In this document: positions 45,145-60,825 of the stretch, in pieces
How the letters are laid out: each line of letters begins with the position of its first letter
Position numbering within the stretch: position 1 is the first letter of the stretch
DNA from: Anaeromyxobacter sp. Fw109-5
GTDB lineage: Bacteria > Myxococcota > Myxococcia > Myxococcales > Anaeromyxobacteraceae
Assembly (NCBI RefSeq): GCF_000017505.1
Contig: NC_009675.1
Span: 3,419,001 to 3,483,000, forward strand
Direction of reading: 5' to 3'
DNA length: 64,000 nt
Translations under genes and position numbers: made by a program
The notes under the pieces: generated by a model
Told to the model about the DNA's origin: nothing
The model's input: the letters and a program-made list of their open reading frames with translations, nothing else
The model's database searches: none

Positions 45145-46116
45145 CTACGGGAGGAGCACCACCGAGCCGGTGGTCCGGCGCGCCTCCAGCGCGCGGTGCG
45201 CCTCGGCGGCCTCGGCGAGCGGCCAGGTCTGGCCGATCTCCACCTCGACCTTTCCGCTCCGCAGCATCTCGAACAGCTCGGCCGCGCCCCGCTCCAGGTC
45301 CTCGCGGCGGGCGATGTAGGTGAAGACGGTGGGGCGGGTGAGGAAGAGCGATCCCTTGCGCGCGAGCAGCCCGATGTCGAAGGGCGGGACGGCGCCGGAG
45401 GCGTTCCCGAAGCTGACCATGAGCCCGAGCGGCGCGAGGCAATCGAGGGACCCCTCGAACGTGGCCTTCCCGACGGAGTCGTAGACCACCGGCACGCCGG
45501 CGCCGCCGGTCAGCTCGCGGACCCGCCGCGGGAAGTCCTCGCGGGAGTAGACGATCACGTGATCGCAGCCGTGCGCGCGCGCGAGCGACGCCTTCGCGTC
45601 CGACCCCACCGTGCCGATCACCGTCGCCCCGAGCGCCTTCAGCCACTGCGTCGCGATGAGCCCGACGCCGCCCGCCGCGGCGTGCACGAGCACGGTCTCG
45701 CCGGCGCGCACCCGGTACGTGCGGCGCACCAGCGCCTGGACCGTGAGCCCCTTCGTCAGGACCGCGGCGGCGGTCCGCTCGTCGACGCCGTCGGGGAGCT
45801 TCACCAGCCGCTCGGCGGAGACCAGCCGGACGTCGGCGTAGGAGCCGATCGGCCCCGTGTACGCGACGCGATCGCCGGGGCCGACGTGGCTCACGCCGGG
45901 CCCGACCTCCTCCACGACGCCGGCGCCCTCGACCCCGATCCCCGACGGCAGCGGCAGGGGGTAGAGGCCAGAGCGGTGGTACGTGTCGACGAAGTTGACG
46001 CCGATGGCCCTGTGCCGGACGCGCGCCTCGCCCGCGCCGGGCGCGCCGACCTCGACGTCCTCGAGCCGGAGCACCTCCGGCCCGCCGGTCTGGTGGAAGC
46101 GGATTGCCTTGGGCAT
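45145..46116 (-). CDS. Quinone oxidoreductase (zeta-crystallin type)
   Basis: NADPH-dependent quinone reductase of 323 aa from the medium-chain reductase family lacking zinc. Features: HQTGGPEVLRLEDVEVGAPG at the N-terminus, GVNFVDTYHRSGLYPLPLPSGIGVEGAGVV, the cofactor fold VLVHAAAGGVGLIATQWLKALGA, and FLTRPTVFTYIARREDL typical of QorA. No zinc-binding cysteines are present. The frame begins at an ATG in family register. It stands alone after the acyl-CoA synthetase gene on the same strand, 102 bases away. Confidence 0.9.
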   Translation of the reverse strand: MPKAIRFHQTGGPEVLRLEDVEVGAPGAGEARVRHRAIGVNFVDTYHRSGLYPLPLPSGIGVEGAGVVEEVGPGVSHVGPGDRVAYTGPIGSYADVRLVSAERLVKLPDGVDERTAAAVLTKGLTVQALVRRTYRVRAGETVLVHAAAGGVGLIATQWLKALGATVIGTVGSDAKASLARAHGCDHVIVYSREDFPRRVRELTGGAGVPVVYDSVGKATFEGSLDCLAPLGLMVSFGNASGAVPPFDIGLLARKGSLFLTRPTVFTYIARREDLERGAAELFEMLRSGKVEVEIGQTWPLAEAAEAHRALEARRTTGSVVLLP

Positions 46117-46235
46117 GGCCGGCTCCTAACCGGTCGCGCCGAGGAACGCCAGCGGCCAATTCGACCCGGTCGAGGCCCAAAAATCAGGGGAGCAGGCAGG
46201 CGCGAACCGACCGACGTGCCGACACTGTCCCCGCC

Positions 46236-47507
46236 ATGCCCCTCGCCGACCACCTCCTCGCGCCTCGAGCGGTCTTCCTCGTCCCCGTCGCCCTGTCCGC
46301 CTTGCTGGCGTGTGGTGGAGGGCCCGTCTCCGGGGCGGCTGGGGAGGCGCCGCTGGGCGGGCCCGCTCCCGTGCAGTCCACCACCGTGCAGCCCACCGTC
46401 CCGGCGCAGGTGGCGGCCGGGGCCGTGACCGTGGAGCGGCTCGACGACGCCGCCGAGTGCGACGCCCTCGTGCCCGACGCCGTCCCGGAGCCGGTCACCG
46501 CGCGGCTCTCCCCTCCGGCCGGCGGCACCTGCGTCGGCGGCATCGCCGACGGAACCGGCGCGGTGGCGCTCGGCTTCCGCGACGCGGCGGGGAGTCTGTC
46601 CTGGCAGGCGACCACCGCGGACGGCCGCGCGCAGGCGACGTTCGCCGCGGAGGCGCTGGTCGCCGCGCCCGACGGCTGGCAGGGGCTCGCCGGCGGCGGC
46701 GACCTCGTGGACCACCTCGCCGTCGCGCCCGACGGGCGGGTGCGGCGCGCGTCCGCCGTCTCGCCGGACCCGGCGGAGCGCACCGGCTTCCGCTGGCGGC
46801 TCGCGCAGGATCCGTCGGGAGGCAGCGTGGTCCTGTTCCGCTCGGTGACGGTGGCGGGCAACCACTGGAACGCGCTCGACGCCTACCGCTTCGACGCGAG
46901 CGGCGCCCCGCGCTGGCCCGAGGCGGTTGCGGTCTCGTCCGATCCGGACGCGTCGGAGCCCTGGTTCATGGCGGCCGGCGTCTCCACCACGGGCGCGGCG
47001 CTCTCGCTGTTCCAGGACTCGGCCTTCGTGCGCGCGCGCTGGATCGAGCCCTCCGGCGCGGCGCGCGAAGGGACCGCCGAGCCGGAGCCGTCGACCGGCG
47101 TCGTCGGCGAGGGGCTCGCCCACGAGGTGGAGCTCGCGCCGCTGCTCGACGGCTCGCTCGCGGTCCGCTCCGACGGCGCCTGGCGCCGCCGCTACCCGCC
47201 GCTCGCGGAGCGCTCCGAGCCGCTGCCCGCCTGGCTGGCCGAGCGCTCGACCTGGAGCTTCAGGTTCACGCGCGGTAACTCGGGCTACGCGGCGCTCGAG
47301 CCCGCCGGCCGGGCGTCACCCGACTGCGCCCAGCGGATCGAGCTCCTGGCGCCCTCGGGGCGGCTCTGCGGCCGCGTGACCGTTCGTGAAGACGGTACCG
47401 GCTGCACCACCGGCGCGCTCGACCAGGGCTGGGACGGGACCGTGGTGCAGCAATCTGCCGCGGACGCCTGCACGTTCCGCTGGTGGCCGCGGCTGCTCGC
47501 CCGCTGA
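46236..47507 (+). CDS. Lipoprotein of a tandem six-cysteine pair, copy 1
   Basis: Envelope lipoprotein of 423 aa, unknown family. The signal peptide ends in ALLACGG (lipidated Cys near residue 24), followed by a Pro/Gly-rich linker and a ~370-residue domain. Six cysteines are shared with the next gene: AAECDAL, GTCVGG, SPDCAQR, GRLCGR, GTGCTTG and ADACTFR, suggesting three disulfides. GNHWNALDAYRFDASG and DSAFVRARWI are other shared blocks. The frame is open 132 bases further upstream, but the signal peptide fixes the start at the ATG 46236. Confidence 0.7.
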   Translation: MPLADHLLAPRAVFLVPVALSALLACGGGPVSGAAGEAPLGGPAPVQSTTVQPTVPAQVAAGAVTVERLDDAAECDALVPDAVPEPVTARLSPPAGGTCVGGIADGTGAVALGFRDAAGSLSWQATTADGRAQATFAAEALVAAPDGWQGLAGGGDLVDHLAVAPDGRVRRASAVSPDPAERTGFRWRLAQDPSGGSVVLFRSVTVAGNHWNALDAYRFDASGAPRWPEAVAVSSDPDASEPWFMAAGVSTTGAALSLFQDSAFVRARWIEPSGAAREGTAEPEPSTGVVGEGLAHEVELAPLLDGSLAVRSDGAWRRRYPPLAERSEPLPAWLAERSTWSFRFTRGNSGYAALEPAGRASPDCAQRIELLAPSGRLCGRVTVREDGTGCTTGALDQGWDGTVVQQSAADACTFRWWPRLLAR

Positions 47508-47577: not shown

Positions 47578-48942
47578 GTGCGGGTCTCCGTCGCCCTCCT
47601 CCTGACCGTGCTGGCCTTGGCCTTGGGCGCGTGCAACGGCGACGGGGGCTCGCCCGCGCCGCCGACGGACGGCGGGTCGGACGGTGGAGGCGGCGGGACT
47701 GGGGGCGGTGGCGGGTCCGGCGACGGAGGGGGTACCGGCGGGTCGGGCGGGGACGGGAGCGGTGGCGTGGTCCCGCCGGGCGGCGGCGGGGGCGGCGGCG
47801 GTGGGGTGGATGGCGCGTATCCGCAGAGCGCGACGGTGGCGGTGGAGCGCCTCGACGCGAGCGGCGAGTGCGACGCCCTCCTCCCCACCGCCGCGCCCTC
47901 CCCCGTGACGGTCCGCGTGGCCCCGCCGGCCGGCGCGGCCTGCGCGTTCGCGATCGCGGACGGCACCGGCGCGGTGGCCGTCGCGTTCCGCGGTGGCGGC
48001 GGCGTGACCGGCTGGCGCGCGTACGGGCCCGACGGGGCACTCCGCGAGGCGTTCGCGGCGTCCGAGCTCGTCCCGGAGCCGCGCGGCTTCCAGGGCCTGC
48101 GCGTGAGCCCCGGCCCGACCGAGTCGCAGCCGCTCGTCGAGCACGTGGCGATCGATCCGCAGGGCGCGGTCGCGAGCGCGGCGACCGTCTCGGAGGATCC
48201 CGCCTCGACGACGGGCTTCCGCTGGAGCTTCGCGCAGGACCCGCTCGGCGGCTCCGTGGTCGTCTTCCGGGGGGTGAACGTCTACGGCAACCACTGGCAC
48301 GGGCTGCGCGCCCACCGCTTCGACCCGGCCGGCGCCGCGCGCTGGCCGGAGCCGAAGACGGTGGAGTACGGGAGCGACGCCGCGGAGCCGCTCTTCCACG
48401 TGGTGGGCGTCTCGACCCGCGGCGAGGCGCTGCTCCTGTACCAGGACTCCGCCTTCCTGGTGGTGAAGTGGATCGACGCGAGCGGATCGACCTCGCTCGA
48501 AAGCGACTGGACGGAGCGGTACGACGGCGTGCTCGGCTCGCCGGCGCTGCGCTTCGACCTCGCGCTGAAGCCCCTCCTCGACGGCGGCCTCGCGCTCCGG
48601 GTGGACGGCCGCTGGCGGCGCGCGTACGAGCACCGCGCGGCGAAGAGCGGCGCGCTTCCCGCCTGGCTCGCCGCGCGCACCGCATGGACCTATCAGTTCA
48701 CGCGCGGCAACGCGGGCTACGCGGCGTTCCAGCCGCCCGGCGAGTCGTCACCGGACTGCACCCAGCGGATCGACCTCGTCTCGCCCTCGGGCCGCCTCTG
48801 TGGCCGGGTCACCCTGCGCGAGGGCGCCACCGGCTGCACCACCGGCGCGCTGGACCAGGGGTGGGACGGCACCGTCGTGCAGCAGTCCGGGCAGGACGCT
48901 TGCGCGTACCGGTGGTGGCCGCGGCTGCTCGCGGGCGGGTGA
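47578..48942 (+). CDS. Lipoprotein of a tandem six-cysteine pair, copy 2
   Basis: Envelope lipoprotein of 454 aa, paralogous to the gene ending at 47507. The GTG start at 47578 gives a lipoprotein signal (LTVLALALGAC). It is followed by a long Gly/Ser/Asp linker of about 65 residues that the first copy lacks, then a domain aligned throughout with copy 1. The same six cysteines are kept, with near-identical C-termini (TGCTTGALDQGWDGTVVQQS). The two genes are 70 bases apart, so they probably arose by local duplication and share a transcript. Confidence 0.7.
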   Translation: MRVSVALLLTVLALALGACNGDGGSPAPPTDGGSDGGGGGTGGGGGSGDGGGTGGSGGDGSGGVVPPGGGGGGGGGVDGAYPQSATVAVERLDASGECDALLPTAAPSPVTVRVAPPAGAACAFAIADGTGAVAVAFRGGGGVTGWRAYGPDGALREAFAASELVPEPRGFQGLRVSPGPTESQPLVEHVAIDPQGAVASAATVSEDPASTTGFRWSFAQDPLGGSVVVFRGVNVYGNHWHGLRAHRFDPAGAARWPEPKTVEYGSDAAEPLFHVVGVSTRGEALLLYQDSAFLVVKWIDASGSTSLESDWTERYDGVLGSPALRFDLALKPLLDGGLALRVDGRWRRAYEHRAAKSGALPAWLAARTAWTYQFTRGNAGYAAFQPPGESSPDCTQRIDLVSPSGRLCGRVTLREGATGCTTGALDQGWDGTVVQQSGQDACAYRWWPRLLAGG

Positions 48943-49090
48943 GGATCGCCGCGTGCTCTGATGCACATGGCGGCTTGGCTCGACACGCGCCCAATCAACG
49001 TGACGCACGTACGGGATAGAACACGAGTCGTTCGGCCCCCGCCCGGACCGCGGAACCTGTCAACGTGAATGAGACAGGGTGCTGCTGAGA

Positions 49091-50094
49091 TTACTGACGC
49101 GCCTCCTCTGTGGGTGAAGCCGGCTGCGGCTTGTTGATCCAGACCTCGCACGGCACCGCGCCCGCCGACGGCGCGCCGGCGGGAAACCGCTCAGGCCGGG
49201 CGGCGAAGGCGGCCGCGAGGACCACGTCGCGCGCCTGGAGCCGGGCGGCCGCGAGGCCGTGGTGGACGTCGTGCGGCGTCACCAGCCCGAGCCCGCCGTG
49301 GCGGTGCTCGGTGTTGTACCAACCGAAGAAGTCGGCGCAGTGCGCGCGCCCGTCCTCGATGGCGCCGAAGCGTTCCGGGAAGTCGGGCCGGTACTTCATC
49401 GTCTTGAACTGCGACTCGGAGAACGGGTTGTCGTTCGAGACGTGCGGCCGCGAGTGGCTCTTCGTGACGCCCAGGTCGGCGAGCATCAGCGCCACCGGCT
49501 TCGAGGTCATCGAGGTTCCGCGGTCGGCGTGGACGGTGAGCTGGTCGCGCTGGATGCCTTGGCGTTCGCAGGTTTCGCGGATGAGCCGCTCGGCGAGCAC
49601 CGCCGTCTCCCGGTGCGCGAGCATCCAGCCGACCACGTACCGGCTGTAAACGTCGAGGATCACATACAGATAGAAGTAGGTCCACTTCTGCGGGCCGAGC
49701 AGCTCGTGATGTCCCAGCTCCAGAGCTGGTTCGGCGCGGTGGCGAGTAGCTCGGGCGCCTTGTACTTCGGGTGCCGCAGCTGGTTCCGCCGCTCGCGGAC
49801 CTCCGCGTTCTCAGCGAGGACGCGGTACATCGTGCGCTCCGAGCAGAGGTACCGGCCCTCGTCGAGCAGCGTGGCGTAGACCTGGGCAGGCGCGAGCTCC
49901 GCAAAGCGAGGCTCGTGAAGCACGTCGAGCACGGCACGGTGCTCGTCGGCGCCAAGCGCGCGGTGGTAGGTCCGCGTCCGCCGCGGCGGGCGCGGCTTGA
50001 GCGCGCGGTAGTAGGTGGCCTTCGGCAGCCCCAGCGCGGCGCACGACGCCGCGATGCCAAGCCGGGCGCCGAGATCGGTGACCGCCTGCATCAC
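49091..50094 (-). pseudogene. IS3-family transposase OrfB, broken by a one-base deletion
   Basis: Catalytic subunit of the IS. The first part (to about 49704) ends at the first DDE Asp in LWSWDITS. The second part (49091 to ~49703) holds VYSRYVVGWM, the second Asp in VHADRGTSMTS and the Glu in NPFSESQFKTMKYRPDF. Between them the frame jumps: restoring one base in ATCACG-AGCTGCTC (plus-strand near 49704) reconnects WDIT to LLGPQKWTYFYLY, the sequence expected in intact relatives. So the gene is a frameshift pseudogene, or the read has an error there. Its GTG overlaps the orfA stop. Confidence 0.85.
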
Positions 50095-50456
50095 TTCTCC
50101 TCGTCGGGCTTCGGCAGTTGGATCCCCAGCAGCTCCGAGACTTTTTTTTGGAGTTCGACGAGACCCTCCGCGCGCTCTGCGCGCCGCGTGGCCCGCGCGA
50201 CCTCGCGCTCGAGCTCGGCGACCTTCCGCTCCAGCGGGTGCGGGACCTTCGCGGCCGGTCCGCGCTTCCTGGGCGCGAGCCCGGCCAGCGCACCGCTGTC
50301 ACGGGCCCGCCGCCACTCCACGAGGTGCGACGAGTACAGGCCCTCGCGACGGAGCAGGGCGCCGATCTCGCCCGTCTTCGTGCATGCCTCGGCCTCGGCG
50401 AGGACCTTGCGCTTGTACTCGGCGGTAAACTGCCGCCTGCGCGCCTTCGCGGTCAC
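50091..50456 (-). CDS. IS3-family transposase OrfA
   Basis: DNA-binding subunit of the IS, 121 aa from the GTG at 50456, behind CAGGAG; the frame is open to 50531. It has a helix-turn-helix (RRQFTAEYKRKVLAEAEACTKTGEIGALLRREGL) and a C-terminal Arg/Glu leucine-zipper-like helix (ERKVAELEREVARATRRAERAEGL). An A8 run at 50142-50149 (minus strand) lies before the stop, where a -1 slip would pass into the OrfB frame. It appears intact, but its OrfB partner is broken. Confidence 0.85.
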   Translation of the reverse strand: MTAKARRRQFTAEYKRKVLAEAEACTKTGEIGALLRREGLYSSHLVEWRRARDSGALAGLAPRKRGPAAKVPHPLERKVAELEREVARATRRAERAEGLVELQKKVSELLGIQLPKPDEEK

Positions 50457-50497
50457 CTCGGTCTCCTGCCCAACCAACCCGATCACTGCGCTGCTGC

Positions 50498-52252
50498 TCA
50501 CCGTGAAGTCCAAGCTCGCCCTTCTACACAAAACTCCGTGGGGGTCGCTGTCTCACTCACGTTGGCAGAGAGGGCCGGGGGTCCCCTCCAGACCCTCCCA
50601 CCCAGCCGCCAGGTGAGCCCGTCCGGCGCCCGTCCGAATACGCGAAGGAACCCACCGTGGATGCACCTCAGGTGATGGAAGGCGCACAGGCCGACCTGGT
50701 TCTCAGGGTCGTCGCTGCCGCCGTGTGAGCGGAAGTCGATGTGGTGCGAGTGGGCGGCGCGGTGGCTGCACCCAGGCACCTGGCACCAGCCCTGATCCCG
50801 CTCGCGGACCTTCTTCGAACGGCTCTTCGAGCGTCTTTCCGCGCCTCTCCACGACGCGAGGAAATGGAACGCGAGGACCGCGAGGCACGTTCCGGTCGAG
50901 AGCACGCGCCCGAATCGTCCCCGGACGGCCTCGATGGCGGCCGCGAGGAGCACCGCCACGCGGCGAGGCAGCGGGACGAGGAGCTTCTGGCGCGCACGCA
51001 TCTGCCGCTCGCGCTCCCCTTCAACCTCGCGCTTCAGCGTGATGCAGGTCGCCCCGAGCGCCCGAGGGAGCCACGACGCCATGTCGGTCTCCGGCAGCCG
51101 CGCCAGGACCCGCAGCTTCTCGTACGAGACGCCCTGCCGCCGCGCCTCCTGGAGCGGGGGCGACTCCCATAGCCGCTTCTCGAGCGCGACGCGCTGCTCC
51201 ACCGCGCGCGCGGGGAGCCCCAGCCGCTCCTCGACGTACTGGCGAAAGCCGCCGTACCCCAGGAGCACGTGCATCCCGCTCCGCTTCACCGCGAGCCCGC
51301 AGAATCCGATGAGCCGATCCCACCCCACTCGCAGGCGGGCCAGCGCGCGGAGCCGCTCGTCGATCTCCTGCGCCGTCGACGCCTCGTCGAACGACACCTG
51401 CGGCGCGGCGAGCTCCGGAACCGGGGGGAGCTCCGCCCATCGATCGGTGGCGGCCCCGACCGCGGCGCGCCGCGCAGGGGGGCCGAGGCCGCACGCGCGA
51501 AACCCGGGCCCGAGGGGGCGCGTCCCGTCGGAGTCGCCGTCGGTCGAGAACTCGCCGAGGTACTCCTGCGCGAGCGCCTCCAGCTGCTCGGTCCGGGTCG
51601 AGCCGGGCAGCTGCTCGCGGGCGGCCGCGAGCGCCTCGTCGACGACGAGCCGCTCGTCCGGCGGCAGATGCGTGCGCAGCTGGACCCACTCGTCCTCGTC
51701 GTCGCCTGCCGGAGCCCGCGCGGCCCGGACCGCACCCTCCAGCTCCCGGACGGTCTGCACGCTGGCGCGCTCGACCCATAGCGCCTCGGCCTCGCCCACC
51801 GCGACCGGCAGCACCGTCTCCGCCGCACGGATCCGGACGCGCCCGGACCGCAGCGCGTCGCGGAGGAGGGGACGGGCGCGCAGCCCGGCCCCGAGCCGGG
51901 CGAGGCTCTCGGCGGAGCGCTTCCCGAGGTCGAGGACCTCGCGGGCGTAGTCGTCGAGGTGATAGCCCAGCTCCGCGAGCCGGTCCCCGTGTCTGAGCGC
52001 GTCGAGGCCCTCGCCGATCGCGAGATCCAGGGCGCCACGGGCCCGCGCAGCCCAGGCGAGGAGCTGCTCGCACGCGTCCGCCTCCGGCTCTCCGCCGCGG
52101 AACCACGTCTCGAGCTCGGCCATGGTGAGCGGCGGGAGGTCGAGCCGCGGCGCCGCGTAGCCGGCCAGCGAGGCGTCGGGCGTCACCGCATCCGTCTCGA
52201 GCGTGGGGAGCGCGGCCTCCATCGCGTGCAGGATGGCATGGCGCTCTGACAC
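50498..52252 (-). CDS. DUF222-type HNH endonuclease, C-terminus altered by IS
   Basis: Protein of 584 aa of the family with a long helical N-terminal region (DUF222-like, here ~50-400) and a C-terminal HNH nuclease domain. The metal site is in CQVPGCSHRAAHSHHIDFRSHGGSDDPENQVGLCAFHHLRCIHGG, with Cys-Cys, HH, Asn and HxxxxxH. The last ~24 residues (from LSANVSETATPTE) are encoded by the end of the IS3 element, so the native C-terminus has been replaced. The start is a GTG at 52252 with no clear ribosome-binding site; an in-frame ATG at 52222 is an alternative. Role unknown, possibly DNA modification or mobility. Confidence 0.8.
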   Translation of the reverse strand: MSERHAILHAMEAALPTLETDAVTPDASLAGYAAPRLDLPPLTMAELETWFRGGEPEADACEQLLAWAARARGALDLAIGEGLDALRHGDRLAELGYHLDDYAREVLDLGKRSAESLARLGAGLRARPLLRDALRSGRVRIRAAETVLPVAVGEAEALWVERASVQTVRELEGAVRAARAPAGDDEDEWVQLRTHLPPDERLVVDEALAAAREQLPGSTRTEQLEALAQEYLGEFSTDGDSDGTRPLGPGFRACGLGPPARRAAVGAATDRWAELPPVPELAAPQVSFDEASTAQEIDERLRALARLRVGWDRLIGFCGLAVKRSGMHVLLGYGGFRQYVEERLGLPARAVEQRVALEKRLWESPPLQEARRQGVSYEKLRVLARLPETDMASWLPRALGATCITLKREVEGERERQMRARQKLLVPLPRRVAVLLAAAIEAVRGRFGRVLSTGTCLAVLAFHFLASWRGAERRSKSRSKKVRERDQGWCQVPGCSHRAAHSHHIDFRSHGGSDDPENQVGLCAFHHLRCIHGGFLRVFGRAPDGLTWRLGGRVWRGPPALSANVSETATPTEFCVEGRAWTSR

Positions 52253-52355
52253 TGACCGTCAACGCAGGTGGCCTCGAGCCCACCGATCGCAAGCGCGCCG
52301 ATCCCGATCGGCCAGGTGGGAATCGGCGCGTCCAGACGCGCACTTCGCACGCTGA

Positions 52356-52386
52356 TCCGATCACGGCGGGCTCCGGCGTGATCGGA
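52356..52386 (-). terminator. 10-bp stem-loop downstream of the broken small gene
   Basis: TCCGATCACG (52356-52365) pairs perfectly with CGTGATCGGA (52377-52386). It lies five bases past the stop of the minus-strand pseudogene at 52391-52635. Confidence 0.5.
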
Positions 52387-52390
52387 CGTC

Positions 52391-52635
52391 CTACGTATCC
52401 GCAACCTCGAGGACCTTCACCTGCAACGCCTTGATCTTGACGATCAGCCGACGCCCACGCGCATCGGTGACCCGCACCGAGCGGTCGCCATCCTCGGAAT
52501 CGAACCACTCCAGCTGCGCACCAGCTCGTCTTCCGTGCACGCGAGCTCATCCGGTTCGCCTTCGACTGCGATACGAATGGGATACTGCGCGAGGCACCGC
52601 TTGCGAAGCGGATTGGAGCGGAGCGAAAAGCTCAT
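52391..52635 (-). pseudogene. Frameshifted small gene, about 82 codons
   Basis: The minus strand from the ATG at 52635 reads MSFSLRSNPLRKRC...CTEDELV. It then goes out of frame near 52519. From there another frame continues seamlessly: AQLEWFDSEDGDRSVRVTDARG, then RRLIVKIKALQVKVLEVADT, to a TAG at 52391. The join requires one inserted base (GAGCTGGT-GCGCAG). Both halves have ordinary codon bias and a terminator-like hairpin follows. It is either a recent pseudogene or a sequencing error. The encoded product is unrecognised. Confidence 0.6.
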
Positions 52636-52785
52636 CGACTACCACACGACGCGCTCTTCGAGGCGAGGAGCGCGCTCAGGGGCCCGGCGACACGACGTCG
52701 CGCCCCGCCGCCCCGGGAACCCTTCCCCCCGCCCGCGGCTCTCACGCGGCTGCGCACGTCGTCGTTCCGCAGCCGGAGGTAACCC

Positions 52786-53214
52786 GTGGGTCATTCTCGT
52801 CTCGTCGCGGCCGCGGTGGTCGCCGCCGCCCTCCTCCCCGGTGCCGCCCTCGCCGAGGTCCGCACCGTCGGGGCGGAGGAGGTCCAGGCGCTCTCGCTCG
52901 CCTCGAGCCGCCACAAGGTGTTGATCGTGGACAGCCGCTCTGCCGAGGAGTTCGCGCAGGCGCACCTGCCCGGCGCCATCAGCATCCCCGCGGGGTGGAT
53001 GATGGCGCACCAGGGGTCGCTGCCGAAGGACCGGGCCGCGCCCATCGTCTTCTACTGCCGCGGCGCGGGTTGAACGCTGAGCCACGAGGCCGCCCGTGCG
53101 GCGGCCGAGATGGGCTACACGAATCTGCTCGTCTACCAGGGCGGGCTGCCGGACTGGCTGAGCCGCGGGCTGCCCGTGGAGCGCGGCGGCGCGCCGGCGG
53201 CGAAGCGGGGCTGA
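52786..53214 (+). CDS. Secreted rhodanese with in-frame TGA (candidate selenoprotein)
   Basis: Predicted periplasmic rhodanese-like protein of 142 codons. The GTG at 52786 follows CGGAGGTAAC. The signal peptide is LVAAAVVAAALLPGAALA. VLIVDSRSAEEFAQAHLPGAISIP and GWMMAHQG are rhodanese features. The active-site loop reads FYCRGAG-TGA-TLSHEAA: the TGA at 53071-53073 (codon 96) stands where relatives have a second Cys, five residues after catalytic-type Cys91. The frame continues as a normal domain end (GYTNLLVYQGGLPDWLSRGLPV) to a TGA at 53212. A SECIS-like hairpin follows the internal TGA. Read-through as Sec or a nonsense mutation both fit. Confidence 0.6.
53088..53106 (+). promoter_or_regulatory. 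SECIS-like hairpin after the in-frame TGA
   Basis: GGCCGCC (53088-53094) pairs perfectly with GGCGGCC (53100-53106) across the loop CGTGC. The loop starts 22 bases after the TGA and has G as its second base, which fits the general form of bacterial SECIS elements. The GC-rich background makes chance hairpins common. Confidence 0.4.
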
Positions 53215-53228
53215 GCGCGTCCCGGCCG

Positions 53229-53261
53229 CCGCTCGTGCTTCAACGGGCTCAGCACGAGCGG
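53229..53261. repeat. REP-like palindrome, copy A (possible terminator)
   Basis: CCGCTCGTGC (53229-53238) pairs with GCACGAGCGG (53252-53261) around a centre resembling GGGCTCAGCA. Related palindromes are at 56395-56427 and 60793-60825. It lies 14 bases after the rhodanese stop, between convergent genes. Confidence 0.6.
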
Positions 53262-56394: not shown

Positions 56395-56427
56395 CCGCTC
56401 GCCCTGAGCCTGTCGAAGGGCGAGCGG
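56395..56427. repeat. REP-like palindrome, copy B
   Basis: CCGCTCGCCCT (56395-56405) pairs with AGGGCGAGCGG (56417-56427), with the centre GAGCCTGTCGA. The core matches a widely distributed bacterial extragenic palindrome motif. It lies between the pyruvate carboxylase and 2-oxoacid:ferredoxin oxidoreductase genes. Confidence 0.75.
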
Positions 56428-60792: not shown

Positions 60793-60825
60793 CCGCCCGC
60801 CCTTCGACAGGCTCAGGGCGAGCGG
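60793..60825. repeat. REP-like palindrome, copy C
   Basis: Reverse orientation of copy B with one mismatch in 33 bases: centre TCGACAGGCTC flanked by GCCCT and AGGGC arms. It lies between the hexanucleotide tract and the lipoprotein gene. Confidence 0.75.

Follow-up and report, generated by a model that had tools for sequence, protein, structure and literature searches.

A rhodanese gene with an in-frame UGA and a very probable bacterial SECIS element in Anaeromyxobacter sp. Fw109-5

Introduction

In the genome of Anaeromyxobacter sp. Fw109-5, an open reading frame (ORF) for a rhodanese, 52786-53073, is stopped by a TGA at 53071-53073, and the same frame is open for 46 codons more, to a second TGA at 53212-53214. 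Is the first of these TGAs a stop, or is it read as selenocysteine (Sec) with the help of a hairpin that follows it at 53088-53106? The question matters for the protein. Under the standard code the product ends at 95 residues, four past the first active-site cysteine, and the second half of the rhodanese domain is lost unless UGA means Sec. All positions are those of the window, the whole stretch of 64,000 nucleotides that was analyzed, which is part of a single 5.28-Mb contig.

Rhodanese or sulfurtransferase selenoproteins are among those listed in PMC9312934, PMC1088965, PMC2398784 and PMC5029168, and a rhodanese-like domain is named among known Sec proteins in PMC8318568. A 2026 review (PMC13188914) divides the rhodanese-like selenoproteins into five forms (UxxS, UxxG, CxU, UxxG, and UxxxxU) and cites Haft and Tolstoy 2025 for TsoB. 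Rhodanese selenoproteins and bacterial SECIS elements are thus already known, and the gene described here is very probably a further member, with the motif C-x4-U in its active-site loop.

Results and Discussion

The Reading Frame Continues across the TGA

The features of the gene, all on the forward strand, are as follows.

52775-52779, +, GGAGG, a likely ribosome-binding site 6 nt upstream of the GTG start (judged by eye)
52786-53214, +, predicted rhodanese selenoprotein ORF with the TGA read through; GTG start, 142 residues including Sec96, terminal TGA at 53212-53214
52786-52854, +, probable signal peptide, residues 1-23, ending ALA (translation judged by eye)
53056-53058, +, codon of Cys91, the first residue of the rhodanese active-site loop (VFYC); invariant in a 17-row protein alignment (A1)
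53071-53073, +, in-frame UGA, predicted to encode Sec as residue 96 in the motif C-x4-U; the 69 retained homologues divide into 37 with TGA and 32 with TGC/TGT here

When the TGA is read through, the Pfam Rhodanese domain (PF00581) extends over residues 38-126, on both sides of Sec96 (E=3.9e-17), and its score of 63 bits against a gathering cut-off of 22.2 places the product in the rhodanese domain family. AlphaFold2 modeled the read-through product as a rhodanese fold with a mean pLDDT of 84, rising to about 94-96 near the active site, and Foldseek grouped the model with solved rhodanese structures (probability 1.00). In the model, residues 91-97 lie between a strand (87-90) and a helix (98-108), and Cys91 and Sec96 are therefore in the same active-site loop. 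The frame after the TGA is kept in the orthologues of two other genomes of the genus. Differences fell at third codon positions more often than at the others (8/14, 9/13, and 7/15 in the three pairwise orthologue comparisons), and the 19 bases of the hairpin were identical in all three genus orthologues compared.

UGA Alternates with Cysteine Codons among Homologues

Homologues were sought in 60 relatives first, and then in 195 genomes of the phylum. A script that scanned the fetched loci for YC-x4-[UC] returned 78 matches, sequence duplicates having been removed already. Nine Cys loci, one match each, that we judged to be spurious or to belong to other rhodanese subfamilies were dropped (L024, L025, L031, L036, L043, L045, L046, L121, and L125). 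Of the 69 rows left, 37 have TGA at this codon and 32 have TGC/TGT. The latter were selected and are no census, being mostly matches above ~93 bits plus matches flagged for TGA; two of the flagged loci, L109 and L110, have no TGA at the codon equivalent to Sec96. The 37 TGA homologues came from 35 Myxococcota genomes, with two each in the window's own genome (L018 and L078) and in G007 (L021 and L079). VFYC and the Cys/Sec96 position were invariant in alignment A1. An in-frame UGA aligned with Cys in this manner is a mark of selenoproteins.

The second C-x4-U rhodanese of the window's genome (L078, G000:C1:2306855-2307208, minus strand) has the same hairpin. A covariance model of the element, when searched on that genome, returned the two rhodaneses with E-values of 2e-13 and 7e-13 and a next match at 0.02; as only these two were found with confidence, the model is no general SECIS finder. 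Nine further named loci were also scanned, and only L118, from Anaeromyxobacter soli (best segment of the contig match 78% identical), was a close relative; the other eight yielded no Sec row. Searches of plasmids and phages returned no close relative.

These counts bear on a first alternative, in which the TGA would be a genuine stop, or the mark of a pseudogene or sequencing error, and the hairpin would have arisen by chance from GC-rich Ala and Arg codons. The recurrence of the TGA in 37 homologues (35 genomes), together with the conserved frame downstream, argues against a stop or a damaged gene. The chance origin of the hairpin is taken up below.

The Host Encodes the Selenocysteine Machinery

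The window's genome encodes a tRNA-Sec (75.4 bits, anticodon TCA) along with SelB (325 bits), SelA (545 bits), and SelD (397 bits). With all four encoded, as expected of the host of a selenoprotein, the organism is equipped to decode UGA as Sec. Its SelD gene (L127, G000:C1:4028582-4029508, minus strand) has an in-frame TGA of its own in the motif SHGAG-U-ACKI, and two adjacent hairpins were observed downstream of that TGA.

SelA and rhodanese forms were tabulated by hand. SelA scored above the cut-off in 34 of the 35 genomes with a TGA rhodanese, the exception being G059, which is 61% complete. Among the 23 Cys-only genomes in the fetched rows, SelA was present in 11 and absent from 12. Four genomes had both TGA and Cys forms. 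In family f7, the form is Cys in G029 and G043, from which SelA is absent, and Sec in their SelA-bearing relatives.

A second alternative would have the UGA read by some general mechanism, as Trp or by near-cognate readthrough, with the hairpin merely slowing the ribosome. A hairpin 3' of a stop codon can indeed increase readthrough, and this much speaks for it. Against it, the same ORF ends in TGA (53212-53214), which means that this codon does not code for an amino acid as a rule. In addition, the residue that alternates with UGA is Cys and not Trp, both in the motif scan, which permitted Sec or Cys only, and in the 17-row alignment, and we rejected a reading of UGA as Trp on these two grounds. 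Readthrough of a general kind is also at odds with the presence of SelA in nearly all TGA-form genomes and with the retention of a G/GU in the hairpin loop by rare codons (see below). We regard this explanation as very improbable.

A Single Hairpin Is Only Mildly Unusual

The hairpin consists of three parts, each assigned from the sequence and its homologues, with covariation for the arms and loop codons for the loop.

53088-53094, +, putative SECIS 5' arm, GGCCGCC
53095-53099, +, putative SECIS apical loop, CGTGC (G at position 2, GU)
53100-53106, +, putative SECIS 3' arm, GGCGGCC

A preliminary description of this DNA had proposed a perfect 7-bp stem with a five-base loop, CGTGC, with G at its second position, and base-by-base inspection confirmed it. 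The stem does start 15 bases past the TGA, and the distance from TGA to loop is 21 nt. That description had also held that the geometry is that of a bacterial SECIS lying within coding sequence. The comparison with published rules bears this out. The model in the Fig. 2 legend of PMC13188914 calls for a loop of 3-9 nt with a G among its first two bases, a stem of 4-16 bp, a spacing of 16-37 nt, and an energy below -7.5. The window hairpin lies directly downstream of an in-frame UGA and has a loop of 5 nt, an upper stem of 7 bp, a spacing of 21 nt, and, for the 19-nt hairpin alone, a minimum free energy of -14.5 kcal/mol (limit -7.5 kcal/mol). At least one G falls in the first two loop positions, and the corresponding column of alignment A2 (G26) is at least 90% conserved. 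Compared with the bacterial SECIS consensus as that review presents it, the hairpin has no structural difference, its sequence being lineage-specific. A search of Rfam returned no family matching the hairpin.

Folding 53071-53115 to minimum energy gives a structure with the seven pairs (-20.4 kcal/mol). Its energy is ordinary (z = -1.45), and since 20 of 200 dinucleotide shuffles folded equally well, the hairpin is unconvincing by itself. The preliminary description had warned that high GC makes chance hairpins frequent, and it was right to do so, an Ala-rich helix adding to the effect. In 1000 synonymous recodings of this sequence, all seven pairs were retained in 8.4% and some SECIS-like hairpin with 6 bp or more appeared in 35%. 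As a single sequence, then, the hairpin is weak evidence and only mildly unusual, and this much speaks for a chance origin.

The Hairpin Accompanies UGA across Homologues

It is the comparative evidence, and not the single hairpin, that decides for a SECIS. At the fixed position, all seven pairs formed in 29 of the 37 TGA rows and six of seven in 5; the remaining three (L021, L022, and L107) have a stem of 6-7 bp shifted by about one base, with the loop GGTC. Among the 32 Cys rows, seven pairs formed in one (L023), six in one, and two to five in 30. When stems were counted instead by the published loop and spacing rules (G among the first two loop bases, spacing 16-37 nt), the contrast held at each stem length.

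Stem of at least 5 bp: 37/37 TGA rows, 11/32 Cys rows
Stem of at least 6 bp: 37/37 TGA rows, 5/32 Cys rows
Stem of at least 7 bp: 30/37 TGA rows, 3/32 Cys rows

Absence of the hairpin from TGA-containing homologues had been named beforehand as something that would count against a SECIS; every one of them has it.

Synonymous recoding, for which codon usage was taken from four window ORFs and applied to all genomes as an approximation, set these counts against chance. Over 35 distinct TGA rows, all seven fixed pairs were observed in 27 against 3.4 expected, and every one of the 35 has a SECIS-like stem of 6 bp or more, against 15.7 expected. The 32 Cys rows stayed near expectation (all seven pairs, 1 against 0.6; stem of at least 6 bp, 5 against 4.7). 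Over homologues, the occurrence of the hairpin in these sequence comparisons is far beyond chance.

The loop codon points the same way. In the 35 distinct TGA rows it was CGT in 17, GGT in 10, CGG in 5, and GTC in 3, so that the loop GU was carried by CGT or GGT in 27. These codons are rare in the four window ORFs (CGT, 10/250 Arg codons; GGT, 4/246 Gly codons), and their dominance at the loop fits with selection to keep GU there.

The complete stem in L023 (G021), a Cys homologue of the window's subgroup, has a different sequence at the same place. It is possibly a relic SECIS left after a switch from Sec to Cys, or it may be due to chance, given the 0.6 such stems expected among 32.

Compensating Changes Preserve the Stem

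The preliminary description had proposed a check of the stem for compensating changes in TGA homologues, and such changes were found among them, as expected of a SECIS: three stem pairs had two-sided changes (GC to CG, CG to GC, and CG to UA). In the TGA alignment, 94.3% of cells were paired against 87.4% in shuffled alignments, 10 cells had two-sided changes against 2.2, and the covariation score was 0.206, where shuffles averaged 0.116; for each of these measures, none of 500 shuffles was as high. Two coarser measures did not exceed the shuffles, namely the number of pairs with a two-sided change (3; 51/500 as high) and the number of further pair types (4; 426/500 as high). The Cys alignment was 60.7% paired and had no excess of covariation. 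RNAalifold on the rhodaneses returned the same stem with six pairs.

On a tree of 69 rows and 105 columns, in which many forks are weak, the outer pair changed between GC and CG 3 times, the third pair changed 3 times, and the fourth (CG/UA) 2 times, or about 8 events in total. The switch of the third pair in L059, L065, and L071 exchanged Ala for Gly in one arm and Val for Leu in the other, relative to the nearest relatives. The stem has been retained through paired amino-acid changes, and it is absent from most Cys members. That many Sec and Cys members share the same helix makes this a clean comparison of constraint on RNA with constraint on protein.

The tree requires 7 switches between Sec and Cys, at least 5 of them on well-supported branches. 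A phylogenetic sign test of hairpin against Sec was not significant with only the 5 independent Sec/Cys pairs on well-supported branches; hairpin and Sec co-occur in clusters on the tree, and with 5 independent pairs the test cannot reach significance. At the 6-bp stem threshold, no pair went in the opposite direction.

Taken with the conservation of the TGA across genomes, the covariation and the recoding test led us to reject a pseudogene with a chance hairpin, and we hold that explanation to be most unlikely. A third alternative accepts the recoding but ascribes the conservation of the hairpin to something else, such as a regulatory role of the structure or codon constraint on the helix, and places the true SECIS elsewhere. 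In its favor, bacterial SECIS models allow several hairpins, and in this genome's SelD either of the two that follow the TGA might be the one that acts. The rhodanese stem, however, is the sole helix of the consensus fold and agrees with all four published SECIS rules, and it is lacking from most Cys homologues with the same helix. This possibility, too, we consider very slight.

We therefore return to the SECIS. Support from sequence comparison comes from the frame across the TGA, the exchange of U and C, the compensated hairpin, and the Sec machinery. On that basis, the hairpin at 53088-53106 is, with high probability, a bacterial SECIS, with Sec inserted at the UGA at 53071-53073.

A Predicted Rhodanese with a Cys/Sec Pair

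In the mechanism that we envisage, SelB carrying Sec-tRNA(Sec) would bind the hairpin 21 nt after the UGA, selenocysteine would be delivered at 53071-53073, and translation would run on to the TGA at 53212. The product would be small, 142 residues that make up a single-domain rhodanese, and its active-site loop would hold both Cys91 and Sec96 (C-x4-U). Its probable signal peptide, judged by eye, suggests export to the periplasm. Persulfide transfer or thiol/selenol redox would be the most likely chemistry, for which we see about an even chance; Cys91 and Sec96 may form a selenenylsulfide or pass on sulfane sulfur.

Three known rhodanese selenoproteins invite comparison. Form 1 of the review (PF00581, UxxS, WP_010941598.1, PMC13188914) resembles the window protein as a rhodanese with one Sec and a Ser three positions on (U-T-L-S in the window); the comparison is by motif description, and UxxS agrees. 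TsoB (NF045694, rhodanese/DsbD fusion-like) was the best NCBIfam match (E=5.7e-18). Its U-x4-U has the same spacing as C-x4-U, and the two motifs may be equivalent on the strength of that spacing. The window protein falls outside TsoB, for which the cut-off is 805 bits and its score 64.3. TsoB has two Sec in a fusion of 572 positions, whereas the window protein stands alone with 142 residues and Cys at the first position. The third, rhodanese_LYCAU (NF041203, form 3), is likewise a small rhodanese with a Cys/Sec pair, but its motif is CxU and the window protein scores 44.1 bits against a cut-off of 115.

Among the papers listed by our literature search (Anaeromyxobacter rhodanese selenoproteins; Myxococcota selenocysteine; CxxxxU/CX4U), we found no description of a C-x4-U family. 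Tentatively, and at somewhat less than an even chance, we propose that these proteins form a distinct, uncatalogued, exported Myxococcota subfamily in which Sec is the partner five residues past the first loop residue, that is, a Cys/Sec pair enzyme and not a classical one-cysteine sulfurtransferase. If so, the pair would serve persulfide handling or selenenylsulfide redox, and with at least 5 Sec/Cys switches the subfamily would be a good system for the rise and decay of SECIS elements. The list of 11 selenoproteins of Anaeromyxobacter dehalogenans in a 2006 paper (PMC1794560) has no rhodanese among them. A TGA rhodanese (L026) is carried by the 5.0-Mb genome G002 of the genus, and such genes in other genomes of the genus suggest that selenoproteomes of the lineage may be under-counted.

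Genome Neighborhood

The orthologues in G003 and G006 have the same location and the same downstream genes as the window. The flanks of distant members, when compared with the window by blastn, had only the rhodanese stretch in common, and a Pfam search of nine neighbors found no common theme among them. Gene neighborhood was abandoned as a clue to function on both grounds.

Upstream, one and the same gene of G003 and G006 is matched by two stretches of the window, 46000-47504 and 47842-48953, and a gene duplication in the window is suggested by this. That gene is followed directly by the rhodanese gene in both relatives, and in the window about 4 kb (about 48950-52770) lies between. This intervening stretch includes ORFs that, from their translations, we take to be transposase-like and one that we take to be HNH-endonuclease-like, and it is probably an insertion.

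Just past the terminal TGA, at 53229-53261, we noted by eye an inverted repeat whose 11-bp arms enclose an 11-base loop that contains part of TTCAACGGGCTCAGCACGAGCGG. This repeat is likely a terminator or a REP-like repeat. Two weaker copies of it, with 3 mismatches, were observed at 56395-56417 and 60803-60825.
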